A stretch of DNA of 64,000 nt. Origin: an uncultured Chitinophaga sp. GTDB lineage: Bacteria > Bacteroidota > Bacteroidia > Cytophagales > Cyclobacteriaceae. The stretch is taken from positions 186,001-250,000 of the forward strand of contig CABHOK010000007.1 in NCBI GenBank assembly GCA_902168205.1, written 5' to 3'. The notes below the pieces were generated by a model, which saw only the letters and a program-made list of their open reading frames with translations, was not told the origin of the DNA and made no database searches. Below are positions 3,136 to 21,189 of this stretch, one piece after another. Numbering within the stretch: position 1 is the first letter of the stretch; every line of letters begins with the position of its first letter. The position numbers and the translations under genes are program-made.

Positions 3136-4011
3136 ATGCAGAACAGACAAACACCATTTGAGATCACAAAAGCCAATGGCGAAAAGTCCGTCTTCGATCC
3201 AAAAAAACTTTTCAATTCGCTGACACGGTCCGGAGCCGATGAGACACAGGCTCACGAGATCGTTGATGCAATCACCTCAGAACTTTATCCAGGCATTGCG
3301 ACAAAGAAAATTTACAAAAGAGCATTTAGCCTGCTTAAAGAACACTCACGATTCCTTGCTGCACGATATAACCTGAAGAACGCTATCATGATACTTGGCC
3401 CATCGGGCTACCCGTTCGAAAGATTTATTGGAGAACTATTAAAGTATCAGGGCTATAAGGTTGAAGTCGCAAAGATTGTTTCGGGTAAGTGTGTCAATCA
3501 TGAAGTAGACGTCATCGCTGAAAAGGATAACCATCACTTCATGATCGAATGCAAATATCACAATCAACCCGGAACGGTAAGTGATGTTAAGATTCCGTTA
3601 TACATTCAGTCGCGATTCCTTGATGTGGCCGAGCAATGGAAAACACTTCCAGGTCACGCAAACAAATTTCACCAAGGCTGGGTGGTAACTAACACCCGAT
3701 TTACATTAGATGCCATTCAATATGCCAATTGTGCCGGGTTAAAACTGCTTGGCTGGGACTTTCCTGCAAAAGGAAGTCTTAAAGATCTTATCGATTCATT
3801 AGGACTTTATCCAATCACAACGCTCACATCACTGACGTTGACAGAAAAGAAATTACTCCTTGAAATGAATCTTGTGCTTTGTCACGAACTCCAAAGAAAT
3901 GAAAATGTTTTGGCTCAAATCGGAACAAAACCCGCCCGAATCAAAACGGTGCTTGAGGAATGTCTCAATCTATGTGAGCGAGCTAACCAAAGCGTTCTCT
4001 CCTACTCATGA
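3136..4011 (+). CDS. ATP-cone domain fused to PD-(D/E)XK (Mrr-like) nuclease
   Basis: This 291-residue cytosolic protein has two parts. Residues about 7-85 form an ATP-cone (ITKANGEKSVFD followed by a helical bundle), the allosteric adenine-nucleotide-binding domain known from ribonucleotide reductase and NrdR. Residues about 90-200 form a restriction-endonuclease-like fold: GYPFERFIGELLKYQGY, then D125 in EVDVIAE and E138-x-K140 in MIECKYH, a complete catalytic set. The remaining C-terminus is helical. The stop overlaps the next ATG by 4 bp, so it is coupled to the P-type ATPase. Function is unproven; the domains suggest DNA cleavage or processing controlled by ATP or dATP. Confidence 0.85.
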   Translation: MQNRQTPFEITKANGEKSVFDPKKLFNSLTRSGADETQAHEIVDAITSELYPGIATKKIYKRAFSLLKEHSRFLAARYNLKNAIMILGPSGYPFERFIGELLKYQGYKVEVAKIVSGKCVNHEVDVIAEKDNHHFMIECKYHNQPGTVSDVKIPLYIQSRFLDVAEQWKTLPGHANKFHQGWVVTNTRFTLDAIQYANCAGLKLLGWDFPAKGSLKDLIDSLGLYPITTLTSLTLTEKKLLLEMNLVLCHELQRNENVLAQIGTKPARIKTVLEECLNLCERANQSVLSYS

Positions 4012-6548
4012 ATACAGAGACTATCATAGCGTCAGATCAACCTACTCAGAAAGAGGATTTTGTTAATGGGCTAACTGAAAGCGAAGTTCTCCGACTACAA
4101 AATAATTTCGGCTTCAACAAGATTGAAACTGAGAATCATCATTCAGTTTGGAAAATCCTTTTTGGTCAATTCAAATCACCGATTGTTTATATACTGCTCT
4201 TCGCTGCAGCAATGTCGTTCTACTTCAATGAATGGCTTGACGGAATAGCAATTCTTGTTGTCATTTTTATTAACGCAGCAATTGGATTCTACATGGAATT
4301 CCAGGCAGACCGATCAATGGAGGCGCTGCAAAAACTTTCTGTCGTATTGTCAAAAGTTATTCGTGACGGCAGCTTAAAAGAGATCAACTCCGAGCAGATC
4401 GTTCCAGGAGACCTTGTGTATCTGGAGGCCGGTGACATCATTCCTGCGGATGGGAAAATCATAAAGTTATCTCGGTTGCTCGTTAATGAATCAGCCCTTA
4501 CAGGGGAATCCGTTCCTGTGGAGAAGAATATATCGAGCGGATCGCCATCAGACGTGTCAGCTCAGCTCCTGTTTAAAGGGACCTTCGTTACTAATGGCAA
4601 CGCAACCTACCGGATCACATCCATCGGGATGAAGACAGAACTCGGTAAGATTGCCAGTATGGTTCAATCTGCAAGTCAGGCTGCAACACCATTGGAAAAG
4701 AAGCTAGAGAGCTTCACCAAAAAACTTATACAGATCACAGTGCTTCTGGTATTGATCATCTTTGTTGCCGGGTGGATCGCTGGAAATGATATTATTGAAA
4801 TGCTGAACACCGCCATCGCTTTGGCAGTTGCCGCAATACCTGAAGGCCTTCCCATTGTTGCAACGCTTGGACTCGCCCGTGGTATGCTTAAGATGGCGAA
4901 GCATAATGTGATTGTGAAAAAATTATCAGCTGTAGAAACTTTGGGTGGCACTAGCGTTATCTGCACAGACAAAACTGGCACACTGACTGAAAACAGAATG
5001 ACGGTTGCCTCTATTCAGCCTTCGACTTACCAACAAAAAATAATTGAAGCCTGCGTACTGTGCAATACAGCCAATATAGACCAAGCTACTGAAGTTGGCG
5101 ATCCGCTTGAGATCGCCTTATTAAGGTTTTCAGCAGAACACGTGAGCATTGCTGACATCAGGAGTCGATACATAAAGATTGATGAGGAACCCTTCTCGTC
5201 AGAATCGAAGCGGATGCTCACCCTTCATAAAGACGGCAAAAAATATATTTCAATAGCCAAGGGAGCTGTTGAATCCATTCTAAGCATTTCGTCCAACAAT
5301 GTAAACCTGATTTCGGATTGGAAAACCCAGGCTTTAGAAGAAGCAACTAAGCTGGCATCAGAAGGTTATAAAGTTATAGCAGTTGCATCCAGCGAATGCA
5401 ACGAAGCACGAATTGCAAGTGAGAATTTCACCTATCTCGGAATTATCGGACTAATCGATCCACCCCGGCAAAACGTTGCCGAAGCCATCAGGGAATGTAG
5501 AAGTGCGGGAATTAAAGTAGTTATGATCACCGGTGATCATCCTGCCACTGCAAAAGAGATCGGAAGGCAATTGGGGATTGAATCAACCCAGGTCCTCCTT
5601 GGATCAGAAATGAAGCCCTACGATCAGCTCACCGATACAGAAAAAACAAACTGGCTGAATCAAAGCATCATTGCAAGAGTTAGCCCGGCTCAAAAGCTTG
5701 ACCTTATACGATTGTACCAGGAAAAGAATTTCGTTGTGGGAATGACAGGGGACGGTGTGAATGATGCGCCTGCGTTGAAAAAAGCCGACATCGGAATCGC
5801 CATGGGATTGCGCGGAACTCAAGTCGCCCAGGATGTCGCGGACATGGTGATCAAGGATGACTCCTTCGCCTCCATTGTAACCGCTATTAAACAAGGACGA
5901 ATCATTTTCGACAACATCAGAAAGTTTGTTGTCTTCCTGCTTTCCTGCAACCTCAGCGAATTATTCACGATCGCATTTACAGCAATCATTAATCTTCACT
6001 TTCAACTCTTTCCTTTGCAGATCCTCTTCATCAATCTGGTTACAGACGTGCTTCCTGCTCTCGCACTCGGAATGACTCCAGGAAACAGAAACATCATGAA
6101 GATGGCACCAAAAGATAGCAGTGAACCGATTATTACGAAACCTCTTTGGATCACTATAATATTTTACTCAGTTGTGATAAGCGCTGCGGGCCTTGGCGCA
6201 GTCACAACTAGCCACGTCCTCTTTCACAACGAAGAAGGTTGGAATCCGGAACTCTGCAACAACATACTATTCTTTACACTGATCTGCTCGCAATTGCTAC
6301 ATGTGCTAAACATGAATGCAAAGGGAACAAGCATTTTTAAATCTGAAATCACCCGGAACAAATACGTATGGTATTCAATCATCGTGTGCGCTGTGGTTCT
6401 CATAGGATGTTATGAAATCAGTACTGTGAGGCAAGCCCTTTCATTGTTTCCTCTTACGATTTACGACTGGACAATAATCATCGCATTCAGCTTCGCGGGC
6501 CTTATCATCAATCAGCTAGCGAAGGTATTTAACTTAATTAAACAATAA
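4008..6548 (+). CDS. P2-type (Ca2+-ATPase-like) cation-transporting P-type ATPase
   Basis: This 846-residue protein has the full P2 architecture: an N-terminal cation-ATPase domain, the LVNESALTGES actuator motif, phosphorylation D321 in CTDKTGTLTENRMTV, and the GMTGDGVNDAPALKKADIGIAMG hinge. It also has a C-terminal four- to six-helix cation ATPase domain. TM4 reads AIPEGLP and TM6 reads NLVTDVLPALALG, matching the Ca2+ ligands of SERCA-like pumps. It lacks the CPC-type motif and metal-binding N-terminus of P1B copper pumps. Calcium or another hard cation is the likely substrate. It overlaps the nuclease gene by 4 bp and is followed 4 bp later by the SRPBCC fusion gene. Confidence 0.93.
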   Translation: MNTETIIASDQPTQKEDFVNGLTESEVLRLQNNFGFNKIETENHHSVWKILFGQFKSPIVYILLFAAAMSFYFNEWLDGIAILVVIFINAAIGFYMEFQADRSMEALQKLSVVLSKVIRDGSLKEINSEQIVPGDLVYLEAGDIIPADGKIIKLSRLLVNESALTGESVPVEKNISSGSPSDVSAQLLFKGTFVTNGNATYRITSIGMKTELGKIASMVQSASQAATPLEKKLESFTKKLIQITVLLVLIIFVAGWIAGNDIIEMLNTAIALAVAAIPEGLPIVATLGLARGMLKMAKHNVIVKKLSAVETLGGTSVICTDKTGTLTENRMTVASIQPSTYQQKIIEACVLCNTANIDQATEVGDPLEIALLRFSAEHVSIADIRSRYIKIDEEPFSSESKRMLTLHKDGKKYISIAKGAVESILSISSNNVNLISDWKTQALEEATKLASEGYKVIAVASSECNEARIASENFTYLGIIGLIDPPRQNVAEAIRECRSAGIKVVMITGDHPATAKEIGRQLGIESTQVLLGSEMKPYDQLTDTEKTNWLNQSIIARVSPAQKLDLIRLYQEKNFVVGMTGDGVNDAPALKKADIGIAMGLRGTQVAQDVADMVIKDDSFASIVTAIKQGRIIFDNIRKFVVFLLSCNLSELFTIAFTAIINLHFQLFPLQILFINLVTDVLPALALGMTPGNRNIMKMAPKDSSEPIITKPLWITIIFYSVVISAAGLGAVTTSHVLFHNEEGWNPELCNNILFFTLICSQLLHVLNMNAKGTSIFKSEITRNKYVWYSIIVCAVVLIGCYEISTVRQALSLFPLTIYDWTIIIAFSFAGLIINQLAKVFNLIKQ

Positions 6549-7639: not shown

Positions 7640-8077
7640 ATGAAGACTAACTATTTCAAGCTCGCTCTTCTGGCTGAAGGAATCATCCTTATAGGGATGG
7701 GAACATATTTCATTTTTTTAAGACCCGCGATGTTGCCGGAAGATTCTATTTATATAGGAACAAATCAGCAAGAAATTATTAAACACGCTCCGGGCATCAC
7801 ACTCTGGCTAGACAAAGTTTTTTCAGTGTTGGGTGGCTACATCATAGCGACTGGATTGCTAATCGCAAACATAGGTGCTATTGAAGATCATAAGCGAAGC
7901 ATCGTGTCATTTGTTGTCCTTTTAGTTGCGGGATCATCGTCCATAGGCTTAATGACAGTAGTTAACTTCATGATCGACTCTGATTTTAAGTGGTTACTTC
8001 TCTCTTTTACGATACCCTGGATCTTCAGCCTGCTCACTTTTTATCGCCCGGAAAGTTCAAAACCGATTATCAAATGA
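7640..8077 (+). CDS. Four-helix membrane protein, unknown function
   Basis: This 145-residue protein has about four hydrophobic segments (near residues 8-27, 60-80, 88-110 and 118-134). It has no recognised family motif. ATG 7640 was chosen because the first helix follows it directly; the frame stays open upstream but only overlaps the previous gene. Its stop overlaps the AMP phosphorylase ATG by 4 bp (8074-8077), so it belongs to the same operon. No function is assigned. Confidence 0.7.
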   Translation: MKTNYFKLALLAEGIILIGMGTYFIFLRPAMLPEDSIYIGTNQQEIIKHAPGITLWLDKVFSVLGGYIIATGLLIANIGAIEDHKRSIVSFVVLLVAGSSSIGLMTVVNFMIDSDFKWLLLSFTIPWIFSLLTFYRPESSKPIIK

Positions 8078-9588
8078 GCACAGGTATGACAAATTCAGAG
8101 AGTCACCTTCTGGTAAAAAACATCGGCATTGATACTTACCGGGAGAATATCATATTCATGCGCTACGATTGTGATGTTTGTCGGTCTGAAGGATTTACTG
8201 CTCTGACACGAGTAATTGTTGCTAACGGAAAAAAGAGCGTGGTTGCCACACTAAATGTGGTCACCTCAGACATCATTGCACATCACGAGGTGGGCTTATC
8301 AACTGAGTGCATGAAACGCCTTGACGTAAAAACAGGTGACACCATTCATATCTCGCATCTTGACCCGATTGAGTCGTTCAAGAAAGTCCGTGGCAAAATG
8401 TATGGAAACAGATTTACCGAAGCCGCGCTTGATGAAATTATCAAAGACATTGTTGCGGGAAGATACTCGAACGTTGAGCTTGCTTCGTTTATAACGGCTT
8501 GTGTCAACAGCAATCTGGATATCAATGAGGTTGTATCACTCACCAAAGCAATGATTGGCAGTGGACTACAACTAGATTGGGGCAAAGAACTAGTGCTCGA
8601 TAAACATTGCATTGGAGGTCTGCCAGGAAATCGCACCACGCCTGTCATTGTGAGCATTATTGCAGCCTGTGGACTTACTATCCCAAAAACTTCTTCACGT
8701 GCTATCACATCTCCGGCAGGAACAGCGGATACGATGGAAACAATGGCTCCCGTTAATCTATCCATTGACCAGATGAGAAAAGTTGTAGAAGCTGAAGGTG
8801 GGTGTATCGCATGGGGTGGCGCGGTTCAGCTCAGTCCCGCTGATGATATAATCATTTCTGTTGAGAAAGCGCTCGACATCGACAGTGAAGGACAAATGAT
8901 CGCGTCAGTACTTTCCAAAAAGCGATCTGCCGGATCTACACATGTTATTATCGATATACCTGTTGGTGACACCGCCAAAGTGCGTACTCAGGAATCCGCC
9001 ACTCAATTGCAGAACCAGTTTCATAAAGTCGGAGCCGCCATTGGGATAAATGTGAAGTCAATCATTACCGATGGCTCACAGCCAATAGGTGCGGGCATTG
9101 GCCCTGCTCTTGAGGCCCATGACGTGCTCAAAGTATTGAAGAACGATCATTTTCATTCTGCTTCTTTAAAGGAACGCTCGGTTTATGTAGCTGGAGCGTT
9201 GCTTGAACTCTCAGGTAAGTGTGTAACTGGCAAGGGCATTGACTATGCTAAGGAGACGTTGGAGTCAGGGAAAGCATACCAAAAATTCATTAGAATCTGT
9301 GAAGCTCAAGGCGGATTCAAGGAACCACCTACAGCACCAAAGCAGTTTGATATTCTTGCTGAAAAATCAGGGAAAGTAGCATCGATTGACAACCGGACAC
9401 TTGCTCGGATTGCAAAGCTTGCCGGTGCTCCAAAGTCACCATCTGCTGGTATTCAGTTTCTGTCTCCACTGGGAAAAACAATTTCAAAAGGTGACCTGCT
9501 CTACACCATTCACGCTGAGTCAGATGGCGAGCTGAGTTATGCGAAGAATTATGCATCGTCAACACACCCTGTCGTAACGATTATATGA
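8074..9588 (+). CDS. AMP phosphorylase / thymidine phosphorylase family protein
   Basis: This protein of about 504 residues has the long form of the pyrimidine/AMP phosphorylase fold: an N-terminal barrel-like domain (ALTRVIVANGKKSVVATLNVV) as in archaeal AMP phosphorylase, then the helical and alpha/beta catalytic domains. Motifs include KHCIGGLPGNRTTP, SSRAITSPAGTADTME and IAWGGAVQLSPADD. AMP phosphorylase converts AMP and phosphate to adenine and ribose 1,5-bisphosphate. The long form argues against plain thymidine phosphorylase. It overlaps neighbours on both sides by 4 bp and directly precedes a PRPP synthetase-like gene. Confidence 0.9.
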   Translation: MSTGMTNSESHLLVKNIGIDTYRENIIFMRYDCDVCRSEGFTALTRVIVANGKKSVVATLNVVTSDIIAHHEVGLSTECMKRLDVKTGDTIHISHLDPIESFKKVRGKMYGNRFTEAALDEIIKDIVAGRYSNVELASFITACVNSNLDINEVVSLTKAMIGSGLQLDWGKELVLDKHCIGGLPGNRTTPVIVSIIAACGLTIPKTSSRAITSPAGTADTMETMAPVNLSIDQMRKVVEAEGGCIAWGGAVQLSPADDIIISVEKALDIDSEGQMIASVLSKKRSAGSTHVIIDIPVGDTAKVRTQESATQLQNQFHKVGAAIGINVKSIITDGSQPIGAGIGPALEAHDVLKVLKNDHFHSASLKERSVYVAGALLELSGKCVTGKGIDYAKETLESGKAYQKFIRICEAQGGFKEPPTAPKQFDILAEKSGKVASIDNRTLARIAKLAGAPKSPSAGIQFLSPLGKTISKGDLLYTIHAESDGELSYAKNYASSTHPVVTII

Positions 9589-10460
9589 ATGCAATTGTAA
9601 TTTCATATCCAGAAAATGAGGCACTCACTGCGAGCATCGCTAAAGGTATCGATGGTAAAATTGGTGAGATTCAAATGAGACATTTTCCTGATGGAGAAAC
9701 GTACCTCAGGCTAGTAACAGATGTATTGGAAAAGCAGGTATATGTTGTGGCCAGCTTACACAGACCAGATGACAAATTTCTATCTCTTGTCTTTTTACTG
9801 CGACTGTTACGAGATGCAGGCGCTGCATCTGTCACGTTAATCGCGCCATACCTTGCATACATGAGGCAGGATAAACAGTTCAGACCGGGTGAGGCTGTTA
9901 CCTCTTCTTATTTTGGCGAAATGTTGTCGCCTTACATTGATAAGTTGATAACTGTTGATCCTCACTTACACAGGAGAAAATCGATGAACGAAATCTATAC
10001 TGCTCCTTGTAAAGTACTGCATGCCTCTCCTGCCATCTCACTATGGATTAAGAACTCAGTCGCAAATGCGGTGCTGATCGGACCAGATTCAGAAAGCGAG
10101 CAGTGGGTGTCACAGGTTGCAAAAGAAGCCGGTACTCCTTATTTCATTTTAAATAAAGAGCGTCATGGTGACAGAAATGTTGACATATCCTTTCCTGAAA
10201 CAAGTGCCTTTCGCGAGCGCACACCTGTGCTTGTTGACGACATCATTTCAACAGCACATACTATGATTGTAACGGTAAAACGATTGTTGGAACTTGGATT
10301 TAAGCAACCAACGTGTGTTGGCGTCCATGCGATCTTTGCCGATAATTCCTTTCAGGAATTGCAGGACGTTGGCGCTGCGCAAATTGTAACTTGCAACACT
10401 ATTGCCCACAGTAGCAACGGTATAGATCTTAGTCCGTTAATCATTGAAGCATTGCAATGA
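9585..10460 (+). CDS. prs: Ribose-phosphate pyrophosphokinase (PRPP synthetase) family
   Basis: This 291-residue two-lobed phosphoribosyltransferase-fold enzyme contains FPDGETYLR, RQDKQFRPGEAVTSSYFGE, TVDPHLHR (metal/ATP site), the catalytic-loop stretch KERHGDRNVDIS, and the PRPP-binding loop VDDIISTAHTM. The canonical loop is VDDMIDTAGT, so Ser and His replace the usual Asp and Gly. The length and RQDKQF form resemble archaeal-type Prs. The usual reaction is ribose-5-phosphate + ATP to PRPP + AMP. Placed just after AMP phosphorylase, it may act on ribose 1,5-bisphosphate or supply AMP; this is inference. Probably not the housekeeping copy. Confidence 0.88.
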   Translation: MNAIVISYPENEALTASIAKGIDGKIGEIQMRHFPDGETYLRLVTDVLEKQVYVVASLHRPDDKFLSLVFLLRLLRDAGAASVTLIAPYLAYMRQDKQFRPGEAVTSSYFGEMLSPYIDKLITVDPHLHRRKSMNEIYTAPCKVLHASPAISLWIKNSVANAVLIGPDSESEQWVSQVAKEAGTPYFILNKERHGDRNVDISFPETSAFRERTPVLVDDIISTAHTMIVTVKRLLELGFKQPTCVGVHAIFADNSFQELQDVGAAQIVTCNTIAHSSNGIDLSPLIIEALQ

Positions 10461-11725
10461 TCAAGAAACTGATAAGCTGGTCGATCAAAAATAAATGGAT
10501 GGTGATCACCATGTATTCCATTATGATCGTCTATGGCATTTACTCGGTATACAATACTCCGGTGGATGCCATTCCAGACTTGTCAGAAAATCAGGTTATC
10601 ATCTACACCGAATGGATGGGCAGAAATCCGCAGATCATAGAAGATCAAATCACCTATCCATTAACATCAAATCTTCAAGGCATTCCAAAAGTTAAAAATA
10701 TTCGTGGTGCCAGCATGTTCGGGATGAGCTTTGTGTTTGTCATCTTCGAAGATGCTGCAGATATCTATTGGGCACGTGCACGAGTACTGGAAAGACTGAA
10801 TTATGCTACGCGTTTACTTCCTCCAAACGTCACGCCTACCCTCGGACCTGACGGAACGGGATTGGGTCATGTATACTGGTATACGCTCGATGCACCCGGA
10901 TATGACCTAGGAGAATTAAGAGCATTACAGGATTGGTATATTCGCTTTGGCCTTCAGACGGTAGAGGGTGTAAGTGAAGTCGCATCGTTTGGAGGTTACC
11001 AAAAACAATATCAAGTTGTGGTTGACCCAACGAAACTTCGTTACCATGGCATTACGATCATGGAAGTGGCTAACAAAATAAAAGAGAACAACAATGAAGT
11101 TGGCGGTCGCAAATTTGAACTCTCAGATATTGGCTACATTATTAAAAGCACCGGATACATCAAGAATATAATTGAGATTGAAAACATTCCGCTCAAAACA
11201 GAAAATACTGTACCCATAACGGTCAAGGATATTGGAACAGTGCAAATGGGAAGCGACTTGAGGTTAGGTATCGTTGATGAAAATGGTGAAGGAGAAAAAG
11301 TAGGTGGCATTGTGATTATGCGGTATGGCGAAAATGCTAAAGAAGTCATCGACCGCGTTAAGACCAAAATTCAAGAAATAAAGAAAGGGCTCCCGGCAGG
11401 AGTCAACATCAAACCAGCCTATGATCGATCCGACTTGATCAATGCAACAATTGACACACTGAAAGAAGCAGTAACGGAAGAAATCATCGTTGTTGCAATT
11501 GTGCTGTTTATCTTTTTACTGCATGTACGGAGCGCCCTCATTGTTGTGATCACAATCCCGGTGTCAGTTCTTTTTGCTTTCATTATGATGAACTGGTTCG
11601 GCATAACATCAAACATCATGTCACTAGCCGGGGTGGCGCTGGCAGTGGGCGATTTGGTTGATGCAGGAATTGTGATGGTAGAAAATGCGATGAAGACTTT
11701 AGGGGGTGAAGCTGAAACGAACTGA
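10457..11725 (+). CDS. cusA: CusA-type heavy-metal RND pump, N-terminal half (copy 1, split)
   Basis: This 422-residue protein corresponds to the first 40% of a CusA/CzcA-type (HME-RND) pump: TM1, the first periplasmic porter domain (DAIPDLSENQV, TLGPDGTGLGHVYWYTLDAPG), and TM2-TM4. It ends just after TM4, which carries the proton-relay Asp in AVGDLVDAGIVMVENA. A normal pump is about 1040 residues. The next gene supplies the rest in another frame. The start overlaps the PRPP synthetase stop by 4 bp, so the pump is translationally coupled to it. Expected role: proton-driven Cu(I)/Ag(I) export from the periplasm. Confidence 0.9.
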   Translation: MIKKLISWSIKNKWMVITMYSIMIVYGIYSVYNTPVDAIPDLSENQVIIYTEWMGRNPQIIEDQITYPLTSNLQGIPKVKNIRGASMFGMSFVFVIFEDAADIYWARARVLERLNYATRLLPPNVTPTLGPDGTGLGHVYWYTLDAPGYDLGELRALQDWYIRFGLQTVEGVSEVASFGGYQKQYQVVVDPTKLRYHGITIMEVANKIKENNNEVGGRKFELSDIGYIIKSTGYIKNIIEIENIPLKTENTVPITVKDIGTVQMGSDLRLGIVDENGEGEKVGGIVIMRYGENAKEVIDRVKTKIQEIKKGLPAGVNIKPAYDRSDLINATIDTLKEAVTEEIIVVAIVLFIFLLHVRSALIVVITIPVSVLFAFIMMNWFGITSNIMSLAGVALAVGDLVDAGIVMVENAMKTLGGEAETN

Positions 11726-13610
11726 TATGGACGAAACTAGAATAGATAAAATTGAAAAATCATCTCAGCTTATCGGTAAAGCTGTGGTGAGTTCTATTCT
11801 TATTACGCTCATCTCGTTCAGTCCTATTCTCTTTCTCGAAGGCCAGGAACACAAGCTTTTCTCTCCGCTTGTATGGACAAAGACATTTGCCATGATTGGT
11901 TCGGGTCTGGTGGCTATCATGCTCGTGCCCGTACTCATGGTATTGTTTCTCAAAGGAAAAGTCAGGCCCGAAAGTAAACACCCGATAAGTAAATTCTTCA
12001 CCTGGATTTATGGACCCGCAATAAGATGGTGTTTGCGATGGAAAAAGGTCACACTTGGACTCGCCCTCGCGTTAGTCCTCGGTAGCATTCCACTAGTTAT
12101 CAATCTGGGGACAGAATTTATGCCTCCTTTGGATGAAGGCTCTTTACTATTCATGCCTGTTACTTTGCCTGATATCTCCAACAATGAATCAAAGCGTTTA
12201 TTACAAGTACAGGATAAAATTATTAAATCGGTTCCCGAAGTTGAGAATGTGCTGGGCAAGGCCGGTCGGGCAAATACTGCAACCGACAACGCTCCTATCA
12301 GCATGATTGAAACAATCATTATTCTCAAGCCACAAGAAGAATGGCGTGAGGGAGTCACAAAAGATGATATCATAAGAGAGTTAAACAGCAAGCTTGCGAT
12401 ACCAGGCGTGATCAACAGTTATACTCAACCGATTATTAACCGGATCAACATGCTGTCAACAGGAATCAGAACAGATGTTGGAATTAAAATCTACGGCCAG
12501 AGCCTCGACTCAATAAATGTACTTGCTCATGAATTCAAGAAACAACTCGAAGGTCTTGAAGGCGTAGCTGATCTTTATGTTGAACCAATTGTGGGTGGCA
12601 AGTATATCGATATCAAGATCCGAAAAGATGAGATTGGGCGGTATGGACTGACTGTGGACGATATAAATATGTTCATTGAAACTGCATTAGGTGGAATGAA
12701 CACAACCACTACCATTGAAGCTCGTCAGCGCTTCCCTGTCAATGTGAGATTTGCCCAAGACTATCGTAACACAATCAATCAAATCAAAAATCTACAAATA
12801 CAAACAGAAAATCTTGGCCCTATCCCCTTGTCGGCTGTTGCTGACGTCAGTGTTACAGAAGGTCCGCCAATGATAAACTCTGAGAACGCTATGCTCCGAG
12901 GGACTCTCCTTTTCAACGTCAGAGGCAGAGATATGGGAAGCACAGTTTCCGAAGCCAAAGAACGACTCGAAAAAGCAGTCAAAAATCTACCTAAAGGTTA
13001 TTATCTGGATTGGAGTGGTCAATATGAAAATCAGGTTCGTGCGCAGAACAGGCTGATGGTGATCATCCCGATTGTTTTATTAATCATTCTGGTTGTGCTT
13101 TACTTTACCTTCAACAGCATGAGAGAAGTGTTGATTGTTTTAAGCAGTATTCCTGTCGCACTTGTTGGCGGGGCATATTCATTACATTTCTTTGAAGTCA
13201 ATTTTTCCGTAGCGGTGGCAGTCGGGTTTATTGCATTGTTCGGCATCGCGGTAGAGACGGGCGTTTTAATGTTGGTATACCTCAACAACTCGCTATACTT
13301 CAAAATAAAAAAACATACTAGCGGACAAATCACAAACGAAATTATTGAAGATGCTATTTATGAAGGTGCGGTTCAAAGGCTCCGTCCCAAATTGATGACT
13401 GTGCTAGTCGATGTTATTGGACTTTTACCCGTGCTCGTAGCTACCGGTGCTGGAAGCGATGTGATGAAACCGATAACCATTCCCTTCGTTTTTGGACTGT
13501 TGACCTCAACGATATTTGTGCTGATAGTGCTTCCTGTGATTTATGCGTATGTGAGGGAACGGGAGTTGGCGAGGTCGGGCAAGCTTGATTATAACCTATT
13601 GGAAGACTAG
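11706..13610 (+). CDS. cusA: CusA-type heavy-metal RND pump, C-terminal half (copy 1, split)
   Basis: This protein of up to 634 residues continues the pump: amphipathic helix, TM5-6 (SFSPILFLEGQEHKLF), second porter domain, and TM7-12. It retains RINMLSTG and GPPMI, matching two of the three CusA copper-site methionines, while RYGLT has Leu at the third. TM10 AVETGV and TM11 RLRPKLMT carry the relay Glu and Lys. GTG 11706 (SD-like upstream) or ATG 11727, one base after the first half stops, could start translation. The reading frame differs from the first half, but the homologous second copy is split at the same place in the same frame, which favours a real two-gene pump. Confidence 0.88.
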   Translation: MKLKRTDMDETRIDKIEKSSQLIGKAVVSSILITLISFSPILFLEGQEHKLFSPLVWTKTFAMIGSGLVAIMLVPVLMVLFLKGKVRPESKHPISKFFTWIYGPAIRWCLRWKKVTLGLALALVLGSIPLVINLGTEFMPPLDEGSLLFMPVTLPDISNNESKRLLQVQDKIIKSVPEVENVLGKAGRANTATDNAPISMIETIIILKPQEEWREGVTKDDIIRELNSKLAIPGVINSYTQPIINRINMLSTGIRTDVGIKIYGQSLDSINVLAHEFKKQLEGLEGVADLYVEPIVGGKYIDIKIRKDEIGRYGLTVDDINMFIETALGGMNTTTTIEARQRFPVNVRFAQDYRNTINQIKNLQIQTENLGPIPLSAVADVSVTEGPPMINSENAMLRGTLLFNVRGRDMGSTVSEAKERLEKAVKNLPKGYYLDWSGQYENQVRAQNRLMVIIPIVLLIILVVLYFTFNSMREVLIVLSSIPVALVGGAYSLHFFEVNFSVAVAVGFIALFGIAVETGVLMLVYLNNSLYFKIKKHTSGQITNEIIEDAIYEGAVQRLRPKLMTVLVDVIGLLPVLVATGAGSDVMKPITIPFVFGLLTSTIFVLIVLPVIYAYVRERELARSGKLDYNLLED

Positions 13611-13718
13611 TTAACCCCAAAAAAGCCGGTTTTTCGTTCAATTTCTTGAAATTCTATAACTCAATAATCCTAAAGTATAAATCCAAAGTCGCAGATTTCC
13701 GTTAGATTTGGGTATTGA

Positions 13719-14126
13719 ATGAAGGCAATCCGTTCCATATCAGCTGTATTGTTAGCCCTCCTGGTGCTGGTTTCATCTACCAGTTTCATGGTCGGGATGC
13801 ATATCTGTATGGGGGAAGTTCAAAACATTGCCCTGTTTGGAAAAGCTGATAGCTGCCAGAAAGAAAAAGCTTTGCCAGCTTGCCACAAGCATATGAAACC
13901 GGCTTGCTGCCAGGATGAGCTTGTTTATCATGAAGGCACTGACTTCAATGGTTCTATCGAACATGTTCACTTCGTTGCTCCTGCTCCGATGGACATTGAG
14001 CAACCTGTTGTTCTTATATCAGAAGTTATTCCAGCTTCACCGCTCGCGCAATTCAAATACTACAACTACGATCCACCCTTGCGATCTTGTGACCTTACGG
14101 TCGAGCATCAAGTTTTCTTAATCTGA
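13719..14126 (+). CDS. HYC_CC_PP-type Cys/His-rich secreted protein
   Basis: This 135-residue protein has a signal peptide (residues 1-24), then MHICMGEVQNIALFGKADSC, ACHKHMKPACCQDE and a Pro-rich tail (YDPPLRS). The H-C...CC...PP layout is that of a Bacteroidetes family that sits in front of metal-efflux operons. It is the first gene of the main copper unit, 100 bp before the second cusA. Conserved Cys, His and Met suggest periplasmic copper binding or sensing, which is not shown. A TAGATTTG sequence at 13703-13710 fits the Bacteroidetes -7 consensus TAnnTTTG, but it is very close to the ATG. Confidence 0.82.
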   Translation: MKAIRSISAVLLALLVLVSSTSFMVGMHICMGEVQNIALFGKADSCQKEKALPACHKHMKPACCQDELVYHEGTDFNGSIEHVHFVAPAPMDIEQPVVLISEVIPASPLAQFKYYNYDPPLRSCDLTVEHQVFLI

Positions 14127-14226
14127 TTTACTGCCATTCGTTTTGAAGAGCATCCTGTTCTTCGTGTAATCGCTTTGTTCTAACGCGATCACAGTAATTA
14201 CTTTTCTACATTCTTCATTTTAAGTC

Positions 14227-15510
14227 ATGATTGAAAGCTTAATATCTTTCTCTCTTCGAAATAGATTCCTGGTGTTGCTTGTTGCAGCCGGATTATTTGC
14301 CTGGGGAGTTTATTCGGTGAAAGAAAATAAAATAGACGCGATACCTGATCTCTCAGAAAACCAGGTGATCGTCTTTACAGAATGGATGGGCCGCAGTCCT
14401 CAGATCATCGAGGACCAGGTGACTTATCCACTTGTGACAAATCTTCAAGGTCTCCCCCAGGTTAAATATGTCCGTGGCGCTTCCATGTTCGGAATGAGTT
14501 TCGTCTATGTAATCTTCAATGATGACACTGAAGTATACTGGGCACGGGAACGCGTACTTGAAAGGCTCAACTATGCTACTCGCCTTTTGCCGGAAGGTGT
14601 CACGCCAACGCTTGGTCCGGATGGAACCGGTGTCGGTCATATACTTTGGTATACCCTTGACGCGCCTGGAATGGATCTTGGTGAACAGCGCGCAATTCAG
14701 GACTGGTATGTAAAGTTCGCACTACAGAATGTTCAGGGCGTCAGTGAGCTTGCATCATTCGGTGGCTTTCAAAAACAATATCAAATCACAGTTGACCCAA
14801 ACAAGCTGAACTACTATAATCTTTCAGCGCAGGAAGTCATTCAATCCATACGGGCAAATAACAATGAAGCTGGGGGAAGGAAATTCGAACAGAGCGATAT
14901 CGGATACATCATTAAGACCACCGGCTATCTCAAGTCGGTAAATGAGATAGAAAACATTCCTGTAAAGACTGTCAATACTGTTCCCGTAAAAGTCCGTGAT
15001 ATTGCTACCGTTCAGATGACAGGTGAAACGCGGCTCGGAATTTTTGATATGAATGGCGAAGGCGAAGTGGTTGGGGGAATTGTTGTGATGCGCTATGGCG
15101 AAAATGCTGATGAAGTTATCACCGCAGTGAAGAAGAAGATGGAGGAAGTAGCGAAAGGTTTTCCGCAGGGCGTGAAATTCAATATTGTTTATGATCGAAG
15201 TGATTTAATACAGGAGTCAATATCGTCCATAAAAACAACGCTGATCGAAGAAATGATCGTGGTATCGATAATAGTTATCATATTTCTATTTCATTGGAGA
15301 AGTGCAGCGAGTATCATCATTCAAATTCCGATCACGATTGCAACAAGCTTTATTCTACTGAATGCTTTTGGCATTACTTCTAACATTATGTCACTCACCG
15401 GAATTGCTCTTGCCATAGGGGTAATTGTCGATAACGGAATTATCATGGCAGAGAACTCTTATAAGAATCTGTCCCATCGGTATTCAGAATTAAACCCGGA
15501 GGATAAGTAA
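14227..15510 (+). CDS. cusA: CusA-type heavy-metal RND pump, N-terminal half (copy 2, split)
   Basis: This 427-residue paralogue of the protein at 10457 is similar along its whole length (DAIPDLSENQVIVFTEWMGR, TLGPDGTGVGH, LASFGGFQKQYQ). It covers TM1, the first porter domain and TM2-TM4, and ends 20-25 residues after the TM4 motif AIGVIVDNGIIMAEN. A TAA follows and the C-terminal half starts 9 bp later in the same frame. An intact GGAGG lies at 15498-15502, upstream of the next start. The split position matches copy 1. Confidence 0.92.
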   Translation: MIESLISFSLRNRFLVLLVAAGLFAWGVYSVKENKIDAIPDLSENQVIVFTEWMGRSPQIIEDQVTYPLVTNLQGLPQVKYVRGASMFGMSFVYVIFNDDTEVYWARERVLERLNYATRLLPEGVTPTLGPDGTGVGHILWYTLDAPGMDLGEQRAIQDWYVKFALQNVQGVSELASFGGFQKQYQITVDPNKLNYYNLSAQEVIQSIRANNNEAGGRKFEQSDIGYIIKTTGYLKSVNEIENIPVKTVNTVPVKVRDIATVQMTGETRLGIFDMNGEGEVVGGIVVMRYGENADEVITAVKKKMEEVAKGFPQGVKFNIVYDRSDLIQESISSIKTTLIEEMIVVSIIVIIFLFHWRSAASIIIQIPITIATSFILLNAFGITSNIMSLTGIALAIGVIVDNGIIMAENSYKNLSHRYSELNPEDK

Positions 15511-15519
15511 CCATTAACT

Positions 15520-17445
15520 ATGAAACTCTTCTCTAGAAAAACATATAACAAAATAGATGATACCGAAAGGCTTCAGATCATTGAGAAATCCTCAAAGCAG
15601 GTTTCGCGTGGTGTGTTCTATTCAACGATTATCATCATAACCTCCTTTCTGCCAGTGTTTATGCTTACTGGTCAGGAGGGAAAGTTGTTTCACCCACTTG
15701 CATACACGAAGACTTTCATCTTACTCGTAGACGCAATATTGGTCGTGACCCTTGCACCAGTCATTATTTCCTTTTTTATGAAAGGAAGATTCAGAGACGA
15801 AAAGCACAATCCGCTTAATCGATTCCTTGAAAGAATCTATGAACCAATCATCCGAACATGCATGAAGTGGCGCAAAACGACTATTGGCGTGAACATCCTC
15901 GCACTACTAATCAGCATACCGTTGATGATTAGTCTTGGTAGTGAGTTTATGCCGCCACTGGACGAACAATCAATCCTATTCATGCCCGTAACGCTTCCGG
16001 ATGTTTCCAACGAAGAGGCAAAAAGAATTCTTCAGGTGCAGGACAAGATCATCAAGTCTGTTCCTGAAGTTGATAAAGTCCTCGGTAAAGCTGGAAGAGC
16101 AAGTACAGCAACCGACAACTCTCCTATCAGTATGATCGAAACAATCATTATGCTGAAACCAAAATCAGAATGGAGGGAAAATATTACCAAGAGTGACATC
16201 ATCAACGAGCTCGATGCAAAGATGCAGATCCCTGGAGTTGTGAATGGTTGGACTCAACCCATCATCAACAGGATTAACATGCTTGCGACAGGAATCAGAA
16301 CGGATGTTGGAATCAAGGTATACGGTCAGAATCTTGATAGCATTGCTGTTGTTTCTGAACGCGTAAAGGCCGCACTTGCCAGTGTTCCAGGAGTGAAAGA
16401 CATATACGTTGATCCGGTAACAGGAGGAAAATATTTAACGATCGATGTTAACAGAGACGCTTTAGGTAGATATGGATTGAGTGTGAATGATGTAAATATG
16501 GTCGTTGAGTCTGCCATTGGCGGTAGTCCCATTGGTCAAACTATTGAAGGCCGTCAGCGCTTCACCATCAGTGTGCGCTTATCACAAGATTATAGAAATA
16601 GCATCGAGCAATTGAAGCGAATTCCAGTGAAGACGCCTTCTCTCGGAACCGTTCCCCTTTCTTCAGTCGCAGATATTAAATTCGAGAATGGCCCTCCGAT
16701 GATCGTATCTGAAAATGCACTGTTGCGTGGCGCTGTCTTATTTAATGTAAGAGACCGCGACCTGGGAAGTACTGTTCAGGAAGCGATCGAAACACTTAAT
16801 AAAAATCTTGGTGGACTTCCAAATGGCTATTACCTGGAGTGGAGTGGTCAGTATGAAAATCTCATTCGCGGAAAGCAGACGCTAATGGTCATTCTGCCTG
16901 TAGTGCTTCTGATCATATTTGTGTCTCTTTACCTCGCATTTCACTCCATCCGGGAGGCGTTCTTCAGTCTTATCACCGTGCCTTTCGCACTGATTGGTGG
17001 TGCATACATGGTGTACTTCTACGGAGTGAATCTTTCAGTCGCAGTGGCGGTAGGTTTCATCGCCTTGTTTGGTATTGCTGTAGAGACAGGTGTTGTAATG
17101 GTCATCTATTTAAACGATGCAATGCAGCAGCTTGTGAAACTGAAAGGCAACTCTAGCGAAACAATTACCCGTGATGAACTCAGAGAATATGTGATTGCGG
17201 GCGCGGCAAAACGACTTCGCCCTAAAATCATGACAGTGTGCGTGGCTCTGTTTGGTTTGATACCGGTGTTGTGGGCGACAGGTGTTGGCAGTGATGTGAT
17301 GAAGCCAATCGTTCTTCCGATGATTGGAGGCGTTCTCACTTCATCAACTCACATTCTGTTGGTTACTCCCCTCATCTTCCTGATGACGAAAGAATATGAA
17401 CTAAGGAAATTCGGAAAACTTGAAGTATATGAAGTTAAGCATTAA
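15520..17445 (+). CDS. cusA: CusA-type heavy-metal RND pump, C-terminal half (copy 2, split)
   Basis: This 641-residue protein holds the pre-TM5 helix, TM5-6 (SFLPVFMLTGQEGKLFHP), second porter domain and TM7-12. RINMLATG and GPPMI keep two copper-site methionines and RYGLS has Leu at the third, as in copy 1. TM10 AVETGV and TM11 KRLRPKIMT carry the relay residues. Pump activity therefore needs both halves, since the TM4 Asp is on the other polypeptide. It overlaps the TolC gene by 17 bp and is followed by the adaptors, so this copy has a complete tripartite set. Confidence 0.92.
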   Translation: MKLFSRKTYNKIDDTERLQIIEKSSKQVSRGVFYSTIIIITSFLPVFMLTGQEGKLFHPLAYTKTFILLVDAILVVTLAPVIISFFMKGRFRDEKHNPLNRFLERIYEPIIRTCMKWRKTTIGVNILALLISIPLMISLGSEFMPPLDEQSILFMPVTLPDVSNEEAKRILQVQDKIIKSVPEVDKVLGKAGRASTATDNSPISMIETIIMLKPKSEWRENITKSDIINELDAKMQIPGVVNGWTQPIINRINMLATGIRTDVGIKVYGQNLDSIAVVSERVKAALASVPGVKDIYVDPVTGGKYLTIDVNRDALGRYGLSVNDVNMVVESAIGGSPIGQTIEGRQRFTISVRLSQDYRNSIEQLKRIPVKTPSLGTVPLSSVADIKFENGPPMIVSENALLRGAVLFNVRDRDLGSTVQEAIETLNKNLGGLPNGYYLEWSGQYENLIRGKQTLMVILPVVLLIIFVSLYLAFHSIREAFFSLITVPFALIGGAYMVYFYGVNLSVAVAVGFIALFGIAVETGVVMVIYLNDAMQQLVKLKGNSSETITRDELREYVIAGAAKRLRPKIMTVCVALFGLIPVLWATGVGSDVMKPIVLPMIGGVLTSSTHILLVTPLIFLMTKEYELRKFGKLEVYEVKH

Positions 17446-18682
17446 GATTTCGACTTTGTTAACTGGACTCTTGTTGGGCGTGACCGCAGCATCCAGTGCG
17501 CAAGTGATAACCCTGGACAGCGTTCTCCTACTGATCGATAAGCGCAATCCTATGTTGCAGGAGTATGACAACAAGGTCAAAGCACTGAATACGTATGCTG
17601 AAGGAGCCAAAAGTTGGATGGCTCCGATGGTTGGAGCAGGAACATTCATGACTCCCTATCCAAACCAGATGCTGATGGACGAAAGAGACAAGGGTTCGTG
17701 GATGTTCTCAGTCGAGCAGGAGATCAAGAACCCTTCGAAGCTCAACGCAAATAAGAGATACCTGTCATCAAAGGCATCGGTTGAAGTTCAGAATCGTTCC
17801 GCACAATTCAATCAACTTAGAAGCGAAGCTAAAATGATGTATTACCAATGGCTTGTGGCTGAACAAAAGCTGAACATCCTGAAAGAGAACGAACGCATTA
17901 TGGAGTTAATGCTAAAACTCGCCCGAATCAGGTATCCCTACAATCAGGGAAGTCTCGGAAATATCTACAAAGCGGAAGGCAGACTCAGTGAGGTTCAGAA
18001 CATGATTCAGATGACAAACGGATCTATTGAAGAAAGCTCCTTTAGACTAAAGAGCCTGATGAACATCCCGGCTGAAACGCAAATCATGATTGACACGGCA
18101 ACTCAAATCACCTACGAACCTAACCAGGTTATTTACGACACAGCAGCACTCAGCACACAACGTAGCGACATCAGACAGATCGACAAAACCATCGAGGTGA
18201 TGCGATTGAATCAACAATTGCAGCGCTACCAATCAAGACCTGACTTCAAGATAAGATTTGATCACATGCAGCCAATTGGAAATATGCCAACGCAGTTCAC
18301 CGCTATGGCAATGGTTTCCATTCCGATCGCACCATGGTCATCCAAAATGTACAAGTCAGAAGTTAGAGGAATGCAGTACGACATTGAGGCGATGAAGAAA
18401 GGTCGCGAAGCATTATTGATCGAAACGAGGGGAATGCTTGCCGGTATGGCTGCACAGCTGGCACGGATGAAACAGCAACTCGCTAACTATGACACAAAGA
18501 TTATCCCTGCTTTGCGTAAAAACTACCAAACGCTAATGCTCGCATATGAGGAAAACCGTGAACAGCTGCCAATTGTGATCGATGCATGGGAAGCGTTGAA
18601 TATGGCACAAATGGAATACATCGAAAAAAATCAGGAATACTTTAACATGATTGTGACTTATGAAAAAGAATTGGAGAAATAG
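17429..18682 (+). CDS. cusC: TolC-family outer-membrane efflux protein (CusC-like)
   Basis: This protein of about 417 residues has a Sec signal peptide ending TAASSAQ and the long helical repeats of the OEP family. Periplasmic helices are rich in Gln, Lys and Met (MLAGMAAQLARMKQQLANYD). ATG 17429 was chosen over the upstream TTG because the signal peptide begins there. It overlaps the end of the second CusA half and the start of the adaptor. It forms the outer-membrane duct of the copper efflux complex. Confidence 0.9.
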   Translation: MKLSIKISTLLTGLLLGVTAASSAQVITLDSVLLLIDKRNPMLQEYDNKVKALNTYAEGAKSWMAPMVGAGTFMTPYPNQMLMDERDKGSWMFSVEQEIKNPSKLNANKRYLSSKASVEVQNRSAQFNQLRSEAKMMYYQWLVAEQKLNILKENERIMELMLKLARIRYPYNQGSLGNIYKAEGRLSEVQNMIQMTNGSIEESSFRLKSLMNIPAETQIMIDTATQITYEPNQVIYDTAALSTQRSDIRQIDKTIEVMRLNQQLQRYQSRPDFKIRFDHMQPIGNMPTQFTAMAMVSIPIAPWSSKMYKSEVRGMQYDIEAMKKGREALLIETRGMLAGMAAQLARMKQQLANYDTKIIPALRKNYQTLMLAYEENREQLPIVIDAWEALNMAQMEYIEKNQEYFNMIVTYEKELEK

Positions 18683-19964
18683 TTTACTGCTCACAACGAT
18701 GTTGGTGGTAATACTAGCATTGGTCGCATCTTGTAATAAAGGGGACCATGCCGAGCATGCTGACACGTACACTTGCCCGATGCATCCAACGGTTATCTCG
18801 GACAAACCCGGTAGCTGTCCAGTGTGTGGGATGGATCTCGTGCGTAAAGCGCGAGCTGGCGAAGAGGTTGAAATCACAGAGGACCTTTCTAAACTCCTTA
18901 AGTCCCCCAACGAGACTGTCATCGCTACAATTAAAACAATCAAGGGCGAATACAAGTCAATGCCGGTTTCAACTGAAGCGCAGGGCGTAGTCACTTATGA
19001 TACCCGAAACATTTACACGATCCCAACGCGCATTGGTGGACGGTTGGAGAAGGTGTTCCTAAAATATGCGTTTCAACAGGTGCGCAAGGGCCAAAAGGTT
19101 GCTGAGATCTATAGCCCTGAATTGCTTACTGCTCAACGTGAATTAATCTTCTTATTGGAAAACGATTCGGAGAATCAGGCGATCATCGAAAGCGCGAAAG
19201 AACGCTTGAGACTTCTCGGAGCGAATGACTCACAAATCAACGACCTTATTAAAAGCAAAGAGCCAAAGAATACATTCGCCATCTACAGTCCATATGACGG
19301 CTACGTCATCTCCGAGTCACAGCAAACACCTGTTGCTCCGATGACTTCGCAAAGTGCATCAGCATCTACCGGAGGAATGAGCGATGGAATGGGTGGCAGT
19401 ACCACCACGTCATCTCAAACAACTTCTGCCGGTACAAGCACAAGCGATGCCCTTATCCGCGAGGGAAGTTATGTGACTTCCGGACAGACCCTATTTAAAA
19501 TCGTAAATCCCTCGGCATTGCGGGTTGAATTGAACATTGCTTCGACCCTGACTGGCACTGTAAAGAAGGGAGGCAAAGTTATGCTTGATTATGGTGATCA
19601 GCACAGCGATGAGGGAACCATTGACTTCGTGCAACCTTTTTACAACGAAGGACAGGAGTTTCTCACAGTTCGTGTCTATACAAAAGATACAGATCGGCTA
19701 CACATCGGACACTTTGTGAAAGCTGTGATTGAAAGCAACGCGGTTGAAGCGTTGTGGGTACCTAAAGAAGCTGTGCTTGACCTTGGCATCGAAGAAGTTG
19801 TGTTTGTCAAAGAGAAGAATGTCTTCAAGCCAAAGAAAATAGTCACGGGCGTACGGACCGAAAATCAGATCGAAGTTAAACAGGGCCTTTCGTCATCGGA
19901 TGAAATCGCCAGCAACGCGCAATACTTAGTCGATAGCGAAAGCTTCATCAAAACGAATAAATAA
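18660..19964 (+). CDS. cusB: RND periplasmic adaptor (CusB-like) with heavy-metal-binding domain
   Basis: This 434-residue protein has a lipoprotein signal (LVASC near residue 24) followed by the HMBD motif YTCPMHPTV...GSCPVCGMDLV. Then come the membrane-fusion hairpin, lipoyl and barrel domains (NIYTIPTRIGGRLEKVF). It has an unusual insertion of about 45 residues rich in Ser, Thr, Gly and Met (MSDGMGGSTTTSSQTTS, around residues 225-265) in the lipoyl/barrel region. It is the first of two tandem adaptors. It should link CusA to TolC and may deliver Cu(I) through the HMBD. Confidence 0.9.
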   Translation: MKKNWRNSLLLTTMLVVILALVASCNKGDHAEHADTYTCPMHPTVISDKPGSCPVCGMDLVRKARAGEEVEITEDLSKLLKSPNETVIATIKTIKGEYKSMPVSTEAQGVVTYDTRNIYTIPTRIGGRLEKVFLKYAFQQVRKGQKVAEIYSPELLTAQRELIFLLENDSENQAIIESAKERLRLLGANDSQINDLIKSKEPKNTFAIYSPYDGYVISESQQTPVAPMTSQSASASTGGMSDGMGGSTTTSSQTTSAGTSTSDALIREGSYVTSGQTLFKIVNPSALRVELNIASTLTGTVKKGGKVMLDYGDQHSDEGTIDFVQPFYNEGQEFLTVRVYTKDTDRLHIGHFVKAVIESNAVEALWVPKEAVLDLGIEEVVFVKEKNVFKPKKIVTGVRTENQIEVKQGLSSSDEIASNAQYLVDSESFIKTNK

Positions 19965-19965
19965 G

Positions 19966-21189
19966 ATGAAACGCATTTTAATAATATCATTCTTTAGCCT
20001 TGCAGTACTTGCTTGTTCGCAAGAAAAGCAAGGAGATGAACATGCAGCGCACGATCACGCCAAGGAAGAAAGCACTGCAAAAAAATACACATGCCCCATG
20101 CACCCGAATGTGGTTCAGGATGGGCCTGGTAAATGTCCGGTCTGCGGAATGGATCTCGTTCCTAAAACCGCTAGCGCCACTACTTCATCAGACGATCTGA
20201 TGCTGACAGACAGTCAAATAAAACTGGCTAACATCACAACTCAGAAAGTTTCGATTCAATCCATTGGGCAAACAGTTGTAGTCAATGGAAGGCTTGCCGA
20301 AAATGAAGATCTATCGCAGGTCGTCAGCAGCAGGGCTGCCGGGAGAATCGAAAAACTATTTGTAAAAGAAACCGGTCGCACGATTCAAAAGGGTGAACCG
20401 CTCTATGAATTGTACAGCGAAACATTACTTACGCTTCAACGCGAATTTCTTCTTGCCAAAGAGCAATATGATGCACTTGGATCAACTGAGACACGATACA
20501 AATCATTTCTAGATGCTGCAAGGAGAAAGCTACTGCTGTACGGACTCACCAATGCGCAGGTGGAAGAACTCACAAAGAATAAGAATGCGCAAAACCGGAT
20601 TACGTTCCTGTCTCCCGCTTCTGGAATAGTTACGGAGATTTCAGTTTCAGAGGGTCAATACGTGTCGGAGGGCGGATCATTAATGCGCATCGAAAACATC
20701 GCCAACCTATGGCTTGAGGCCGAGCTGTATCCAAGCGAATCTACGATTGCAAAGGTTGGCGATAAAATCAATGTCAGAGTAAGCGGATTCGAAAACCAAC
20801 CTGTTGAGGCAACGGTGACTTTCTTCAGTCCCGAGTTTCGCGCCAATACACAGATCATGTCTATGAGAGCTTCGATTTCAAATCCAACACTGGCATTCAA
20901 GCCGGGCATGCAGGCGCAAGTGTTCTTCAGTCACTCAAGTAAGAAAGCTTTGTCCCTACCGGTTGATGCTGTCATCCGCGATGGCAAGGGTACACATGTT
21001 TATGTGCAAAGAGGGCATAACACATTCAGGCCGCAGATGGTGAAGACCGGCATTGAAGATTTTGAGAAAGTTGAAATCACCGAAGGCTTAACGGAAGGTG
21101 ACACGGTGGCAATAACTGGTGCATACCTCTTGTATAGTGAAATCATTTTGAAAAAAGGAACGGACCCCATGGCAGGTCATTCTCATTAA
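19966..21189 (+). CDS. cusB: RND periplasmic adaptor (CusB-like) with heavy-metal-binding domain, second copy
   Basis: This 407-residue lipoprotein has the lipobox LAVLAC, a His-rich stretch (HAAHDHAKEE), HMBD YTCPMHPNV...GKCPVCGMDLVPK, then the adaptor domains, ending GHSH. It is separated by 1 bp from the first adaptor. Unlike that one it has no Ser/Gly/Met insertion. Two adaptors for one pump could form a heterohexamer, or one may serve the first CusA copy, which has no adaptor of its own. Confidence 0.9.
   Translation: MKRILIISFFSLAVLACSQEKQGDEHAAHDHAKEESTAKKYTCPMHPNVVQDGPGKCPVCGMDLVPKTASATTSSDDLMLTDSQIKLANITTQKVSIQSIGQTVVVNGRLAENEDLSQVVSSRAAGRIEKLFVKETGRTIQKGEPLYELYSETLLTLQREFLLAKEQYDALGSTETRYKSFLDAARRKLLLYGLTNAQVEELTKNKNAQNRITFLSPASGIVTEISVSEGQYVSEGGSLMRIENIANLWLEAELYPSESTIAKVGDKINVRVSGFENQPVEATVTFFSPEFRANTQIMSMRASISNPTLAFKPGMQAQVFFSHSSKKALSLPVDAVIRDGKGTHVYVQRGHNTFRPQMVKTGIEDFEKVEITEGLTEGDTVAITGAYLLYSEIILKKGTDPMAGHSH

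Follow-up and report, generated by a model that had tools for sequence, protein, structure and literature searches.

Two-gene CusA-type RND pumps, cut between transmembrane helices 4 and 5, in an uncultured Chitinophaga sp. and other Bacteroidota

To our knowledge, all biochemically characterised efflux pumps of the resistance-nodulation-division (RND) superfamily have one chain per protomer. A 64,000-nucleotide stretch of the genome of an uncultured Chitinophaga sp. (contig CABHOK010000007.1, positions 186,001 to 250,000; here called the window) raises the question of whether such a pump can also be built from two. Positions 10457-17445 encode two CusA-type RND pumps, apparently in a single operon, and each pump consists of an N gene and a C gene. 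Are these broken genes, or is the pump naturally made of two proteins? Based on comparisons of sequence, each is very probably a natively two-subunit Cu(I)/Ag(I) pump of the heavy metal efflux (HME) RND type, whose protomer would be an N+C heterodimer with relays running across the subunit interface. The four pump genes are listed here; TM stands for transmembrane helix, and residues are given throughout in E. coli CusA numbering.

10457..11725, + strand: N half of copy 1, a CusA-type RND pump; TM1, periplasmic loop 1 and TM2-4, with the D405 equivalent; 422 aa.
11727..13610, + strand: C half of copy 1; TM5-12 and periplasmic loop 2, with the Met triad and the proton-relay Glu and Lys; alternative start GTG 11706.
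14227..15510, + strand: N half of copy 2, a CusA-type RND pump; 427 aa, TAA stop.
15520..17445, + strand: C half of copy 2, a CusA-type RND pump; 641 aa, ATG start.

Both copies are cut in the cytoplasmic loop that links TM4 to TM5. An earlier reading made from these letters alone (the sequence-only reading) had claimed that the two pumps are cut at the same place, and the claim was confirmed beyond the window: the same cut was found in two further split pairs of this genome (7.3 Mb in 20 contigs; C7:280001-283134 and C3:147974-151195) and in 125 distinct pairs overall, counting those with both halves seen and including the window's two. The N gene of copy 1 ends with a TGA stop at 11723-11725. 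For its 627-aa C product, ATG 11727, 1 nt past that stop, is a likelier start than GTG 11706: in the kin locus L081 that frame has no start codon ahead of the ATG at +1. The split at this point was read correctly, but the overlap of the halves over 11706-11725, which the sequence-only reading had proposed, is less likely. Its account of copy 2, with both halves in the same frame and separated by a stop and 9 nt (15510 / 15520), was accurate.

The two halves of each copy together span the family profiles. The Pfam ACR_tran profile is matched at positions 2-418 (N) and 420-1020 (C) in copy 1 and at 2-415 and 416-1019 in copy 2. TIGR00914, the CusA/CzcA HME-RND profile, is matched at 1-422 and 435-1040 in copy 1 (477.6 and 611.6 bits) and at 1-425 and 429-1036 in copy 2 (462.6 and 642.8 bits). 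With neither profile do the matches of the N and C products overlap, and the gaps between them amount to no more than about a dozen positions, so that nothing sizeable has been lost or duplicated at the cut. No window half reaches the TIGR00914 cut-off of 701.45 bits singly, and the copy 2 stretch scored 1097.7 bits in a whole-genome search that read through stops. Whereas characterised HME-RND pumps are single polypeptides of about 1,040 residues, the window pumps measure 422+627 and 427+641 aa. E. coli CusA is the best solved relative of both copy 2 halves, and CusA chains were the best Foldseek hits of both. Hydropathy profiles are consistent with four helices, TM1-4, in N and eight, TM5-12, in C (TM1 of copy 1 lay below the threshold used), in agreement with the AlphaFold models of the lone copy 2 halves, which have four TM in N and eight in C.

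The sequence-only reading had suggested a search of other genomes for separate halves, and this search found the split widely. In a phylum sample of 395 genomes, the copy 2 C half used as query gave 133 matches at E <= 1e-150. All 31 matches of at least 55% identity had half-size open frames (635-728 aa); among the remaining 102, the frames were at least 913 aa in 100 and short in two (G381:C166 and G411:C77, near contig starts). Two genomes with split members, G247 and G263, are filed outside the class but in the same phylum. A class sample, also of 395 genomes and overlapping the first, gave 63 C-half matches at E <= 1e-200, 59 of them half-size (631-728 aa) and four long (G454, G460, G530 and G773). 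An N match was present in each of the 53 class-sample genomes with a C match, 49 of which have split pumps and four one-chain pumps only. Four further genomes of this sample had an N match without a listed C match. One has a one-chain pump (G577, open frame of 1065 aa) and another a frame-broken C half (G572, L260); in G584 a contig end truncates the locus, and in G601 a piece of the C half lies at a contig edge. A scan of named genomes, considered for the best 80 of 583 confirmed loci, yielded 47 split loci, 31 one-chain loci and two cut by contig edges. The 47 split loci belong to Cytophagales (11), Chitinophagales (11), Sphingobacteriales (11) and Flavobacteriales (5), with no order given for nine. 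Plasmids of Mucilaginibacter robiniae and Haliscomenobacter hydrossis carry the pair, with each half entered as an "efflux RND transporter permease subunit" gene; both records are complete and each half has a RefSeq protein accession.

These data bear on the simplest alternative, namely that each copy is really an uninterrupted gene into which sequencing or assembly errors have put false indels or stops. Many of the relatives are draft assemblies or metagenome-assembled genomes, which would favour such errors. However, the 125 pairs come from many assemblies, the two complete plasmid records among them, the halves have start and stop codons of their own, and at eight loci the halves are separated by 3.6-5.9 kb and at least three genes. 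We give this explanation a negligible probability.

The arrangement of the halves speaks also to a second alternative, in which programmed frameshifting or stop read-through yields the long chain and the short N product is a by-product. The order is N-then-C in 117 of the 125 pairs and C-then-N in the other eight, where it runs C - TolC - CusB - CusB - N. In the 117 N-then-C pairs, the distance from the N stop to the best-placed ATG of the C gene ranges from -23 to +755 nt, with a median of 2 and a value of exactly -4 in 22. Window copy 2, with a single stop and 9 nt in one frame, would suit read-through, as would the other pairs in one frame (16 of the 117 in all). Yet the C frame differs from the N frame in 101 pairs, an ATG precedes the conserved region in 114 of the 117 C genes (the remaining three have only GTG or TTG), and the gap varies among the close kin of copy 2 (9, 10, 10, 10 and 6 nt in the window, L080, L082, L083 and L078, respectively). 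Read-through is impossible in the eight C-then-N loci, in L096, where a methyltransferase gene lies between the halves, and in L092, where a 23S_rRNA_IVP gene does so. Because the halves are non-adjacent or foreign genes intervene, frameshifting and read-through are excluded as a general route to one chain, and as an account of these pumps we find them very improbable. The earlier argument against a random frameshift or sequencing error is borne out by many independent genomes.

The new ends are short: the N tail past TM4 has a median of 14 residues (7-55) and the C head a median of 20 (8-32), which leaves no room for an intein. The N-terminal tail of the C half was checked as a positive-inside signal and gave a mean net charge of +1.44 and a K+R fraction of 0.26, values that have no matched control; for this reason, and because the copy-1 lineage has short heads that are not basic, no such signal is claimed. 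Among one-chain kin the TM4-TM5 loop varies in length and sequence.

A third alternative is that the halves are decaying pseudogenes, left from a pump that is disappearing. We looked for the functional residues of CusA in 134 split C rows (126 of them distinct, as some species are in two collections). The available portion of PMC8092243 describes the roles in CusA of the Met triad, E625 and the proton relay; R83, E567, D617, R669 and K678 are required for transport according to the accessible text of PMC11213822 and to a reference title within PMC4446572. The Met triad (M573/M623/M672) is M, M, M in 134/134 split C rows, both window copies included. E625, E567, D617 and R669 are likewise kept in all 134, R83 in 133/133 and D405 in all of the 132 aligned N halves; M391 is Met in 131/133 rows and M1009 in 134/134. 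By their Met triad and E625, both window copies fall with the Cu(I)/Ag(I)-specific branch of CusA. E939 is kept in 127 and K984 in 121 of the 134. Both window copies carry D405, E939, K984 and the Met triad, so that the proton relay is divided over two polypeptides as the sequence-only reading had stated, with D405 in the N half and E939 and K984 in the C half. Compared with close kin, the ratio of nonsynonymous to synonymous substitution rates (dN/dS) was 0.013-0.024 in the 10 of 26 half-comparisons (five N, five C) where it was computable, figures that are only rough because most dS values are saturated. Both halves are under strong purifying selection. Decay would be easier to accept where a genome has several pump copies and could tolerate the loss of one, and the C half of G572 is indeed frame-broken. 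Against it stand the dN/dS of about 0.02 in both halves, the invariant metal-binding residues and a single split clade that spans at least four named orders, which together leave the pseudogene explanation next to no likelihood.

When did the split arise? Trees were built at the "quick" setting from 144 C-half rows and 143 N-half rows, with support from the Shimodaira-Hasegawa-like approximate likelihood ratio test (SH-aLRT). One-chain rows with less than 42% identity in the best C-half match, the window's own one-chain gene (39841-43527) and rows at least 93% identical to a kept row of the same kind were left out of the trees; the trees, the geometry and the residue counts also omit L198 and L178, both at contig edges, an RND gene of L219 that likewise lies at one, and a 571-aa fragment of L200. 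In both trees, a single clade with SH-aLRT 100 unites every split row and five one-chain proteins (L202, L225, L235, L242 and L250, of which L225 is truncated at a contig edge), and the other 33 one-chain rows all lie outside it. The eight C-then-N pumps form one clade (support 99). A tree holding the split pumps alone, without the five one-chain proteins, was rejected (approximately unbiased test, p-AU 9e-7, 50 chosen rows). The least number of changes between split and one-chain states is five in the C-half tree and four in the N-half tree. The simplest history would be one split followed by three or four re-fusions at the tips, and the five nested one-chain pumps are apparently natural re-fusions with new linkers. 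The nearest one-chain kin in the C-half tree are CusA proteins of Geobacteraceae, Chlorobiaceae and Ignavibacteria (L175, L177, L180 and L182; support 85 for the joint group); the N-half tree did not resolve the nearest one-chain kin of the split clade. Inside the split clade of the C-half tree, a copy-1 lineage (22 rows, 100) stands apart from a copy-2 lineage (88 rows, 99), and in the N-half tree copy 1 falls in an eight-row group (100) apart from an 88-row group (95). Since the window copies sit in different supported sub-clades of the single split clade, the trees place the split before the duplication that gave both copies, as had been proposed from the window itself. Path distances in the N and C trees are correlated (r = 0.905 over 105 split rows; 0/999 permutations as high).

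Could the halves be independent transporters or regulators with separate functions? They lie apart within the gene cluster at eight loci, and SecD and SecF are an example of an RND-fold machine that works as separate pieces. The halves of the split pump, however, together account for the CusA profile almost seamlessly and divide its essential residues between them, they co-occur in 49/49 class-sample genomes with split C matches, they evolve in step and they re-fuse. Separate functions are accordingly very improbable, and that the halves act as one pump is strongly implied. The two-subunit pump advanced by the sequence-only reading is borne out at the level of sequence, by purifying selection on both halves and by non-adjacent halves in some genomes.

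We propose that a single cut, in the cytoplasmic TM4-TM5 loop, divided an ancestral one-chain cusA into two subunits, N with TM1-4 and the first periplasmic loop and C with TM5-12 and the second, and left both new ends in the cytoplasm. The halves would be made separately, mostly from frames that overlap or abut; one N would pair with one C in the membrane as a CusA-like protomer, and three such pairs would form the trimer, an N3C3 heterohexamer docked on CusB and TolC. Because TM4, the last helix of N, holds D405 and M391 while C holds E939, K984 and M1009, the proton and metal relays would cross the N/C interface, and transport by either half alone is not expected. The N/C pairing, stoichiometry, substrate and transport are parts of this proposal that we infer.

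Several observations weigh against the two-subunit Cu(I)/Ag(I) pump. Five members of the split clade are one chain again, which suggests that no indispensable function depends on the split itself. The lone-half AlphaFold models are of middling confidence (mean predicted local distance difference test score 69 and 73) and superpose on CusA only moderately, with best hits at TMq 0.56 and 0.64 and root-mean-square deviations of 11.3 and 9.6. The dS values were 1.0-3.1 where computable and saturated in the other comparisons. K678 is Arg in 134/134 split rows. Of the three transmembrane Met pairs of CusA only part is kept: Met is absent at 403 in every row and present at 486 in 48/134 and at 501 in 12/134, so the full CusA Met relay is not retained. 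Finally, E939 is replaced by Gln in 7/134 rows and K984 by Ile, Leu or Val in 13/134, counts in which some rows are one record in two collections; neither window copy is affected. Since a relay residue is replaced, proton coupling may differ in these lineages.

The rows with Gln at 939 are L226, L228-L231, L233 and L236, and those with Ile, Leu or Val at 984 are L088, L099, L168, L170-L173, L188, L214, L223 and L255-L257. The Met triad is kept in all of them, a combination that suggests altered energy coupling.

The genes around the split pumps include those of a CusCBA-type system, with a tolC and two cusB genes directly downstream in a putative operon.

13719..14126, + strand: small protein of the HYC_CC_PP family, encoded between copies 1 and 2 (NCBIfam NF047658, E 3.8e-18).
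17420..18682, + strand: TolC-family outer-membrane factor (PF02321); longest open frame, the true start may be further in.
18660..19964, + strand: CusB-type periplasmic adaptor with an HMBD metal-binding domain (PF16576, PF19335).
19966..21189, + strand: second CusB-type periplasmic adaptor with an HMBD domain (PF16576, PF19335).

Over 10457-21189, what looks like one operon thus has one TolC gene and two CusB genes common to the two split pumps. Because the halves are separate proteins and both pumps share one TolC and one adaptor pair, N and C subunits of the two paralogues could conceivably meet in mixed trimers or mixed protomers. We regard this as unlikely; if true, a mixed assembly would be a combinatorial metal pump, its affinity or coupling tuned by subunit exchange. 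Upstream, at 7990-10460, a gene of the pyrimidine-nucleoside/adenosine monophosphate phosphorylase fold overlaps a phosphoribosyl pyrophosphate (PRPP) synthetase gene by 4 nt, and the latter runs by 4 nt into the copy 1 N half. Relatives of both genes also stand ahead of copy-1-type pumps in L080, in L081 and in L250, a re-fused member, an apparent link of nucleotide salvage to this pump lineage. Elsewhere in the window, a separate one-chain CzcA/CusA-like RND gene of 1228 aa lies at 39841-43527 on the minus strand and a CusB-like gene at 37375-38604. Positions 1-43527 look like a metal-handling island, with P-type ATPase genes at its start (to 679) and at 4008-6548; two further stretches, 27370-29511 and 33848-35821, hold ATPase-like genes recognised by BLAST only.

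Among known systems, the split pumps resemble E. coli CusA, the HME-RND Cu(I)/Ag(I) pump (TIGR00914; PDB 3k07 and 3ne5), in the whole-length homology of the combined halves, the Met triad, the proton-relay residues of the window copies and the CusB- and TolC-type partners downstream. CusA is one chain, whereas the window pumps are two polypeptides cut between TM4 and TM5, have two adaptor genes and keep the transmembrane Met pairs only in part. The one-chain CusA proteins of L175, L177, L180 and L182 are 53-58% identical to the window halves, and their TM4-TM5 linker is continuous. SecD and SecF belong to an RND-superfamily protein-export machine that occurs as two chains or as one fused chain, SecDF. 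They are the closest precedent for the split pump, though cut elsewhere: this export factor is cut at the boundary of its 6+6 TM repeats, whereas the pump is cut 4+8 inside the first repeat. SecDF and SecF profiles matched the N halves only in traces, at E 4.7e-5 to 3e-4 and well short of the cut-off. MdtB and MdtC, each of them full-length, differ in being two homologues that arose by duplication and not two halves of one chain; the accessible part of PMC7015380 presents an RND pump with these two inner-membrane gene products. In a literature search with thin cover of subscription journals, no description of a split CusA was recognised, which does not establish that there is none. The available text of PMC11213822 names one CusA-like protein with the Met triad in Bizionia argentinensis and does not contain the word "split", and "split into two" in the accessible text of PMC4446572 refers to adaptor roles.

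Annotated as two permease genes, such a pump would inflate pump counts and hide its likely metal specificity, a hazard because the window halves fall singly under the CusA cut-off and the two plasmid records already list the halves in this way. The TM4-TM5 loop is a permissive cut site, apparently opened once and re-closed several times by evolution. An old, natural 4+8-helix split offers a way to ask which chain links coupling needs, and both sides of the proton and metal relays would be open to mutation or labelling on different polypeptides without engineering. The split pump thus appears to be an old and conserved two-protein arrangement of a Cu/Ag export pump in many Bacteroidota, and it would provide a natural test of how the halves of an RND pump cooperate.

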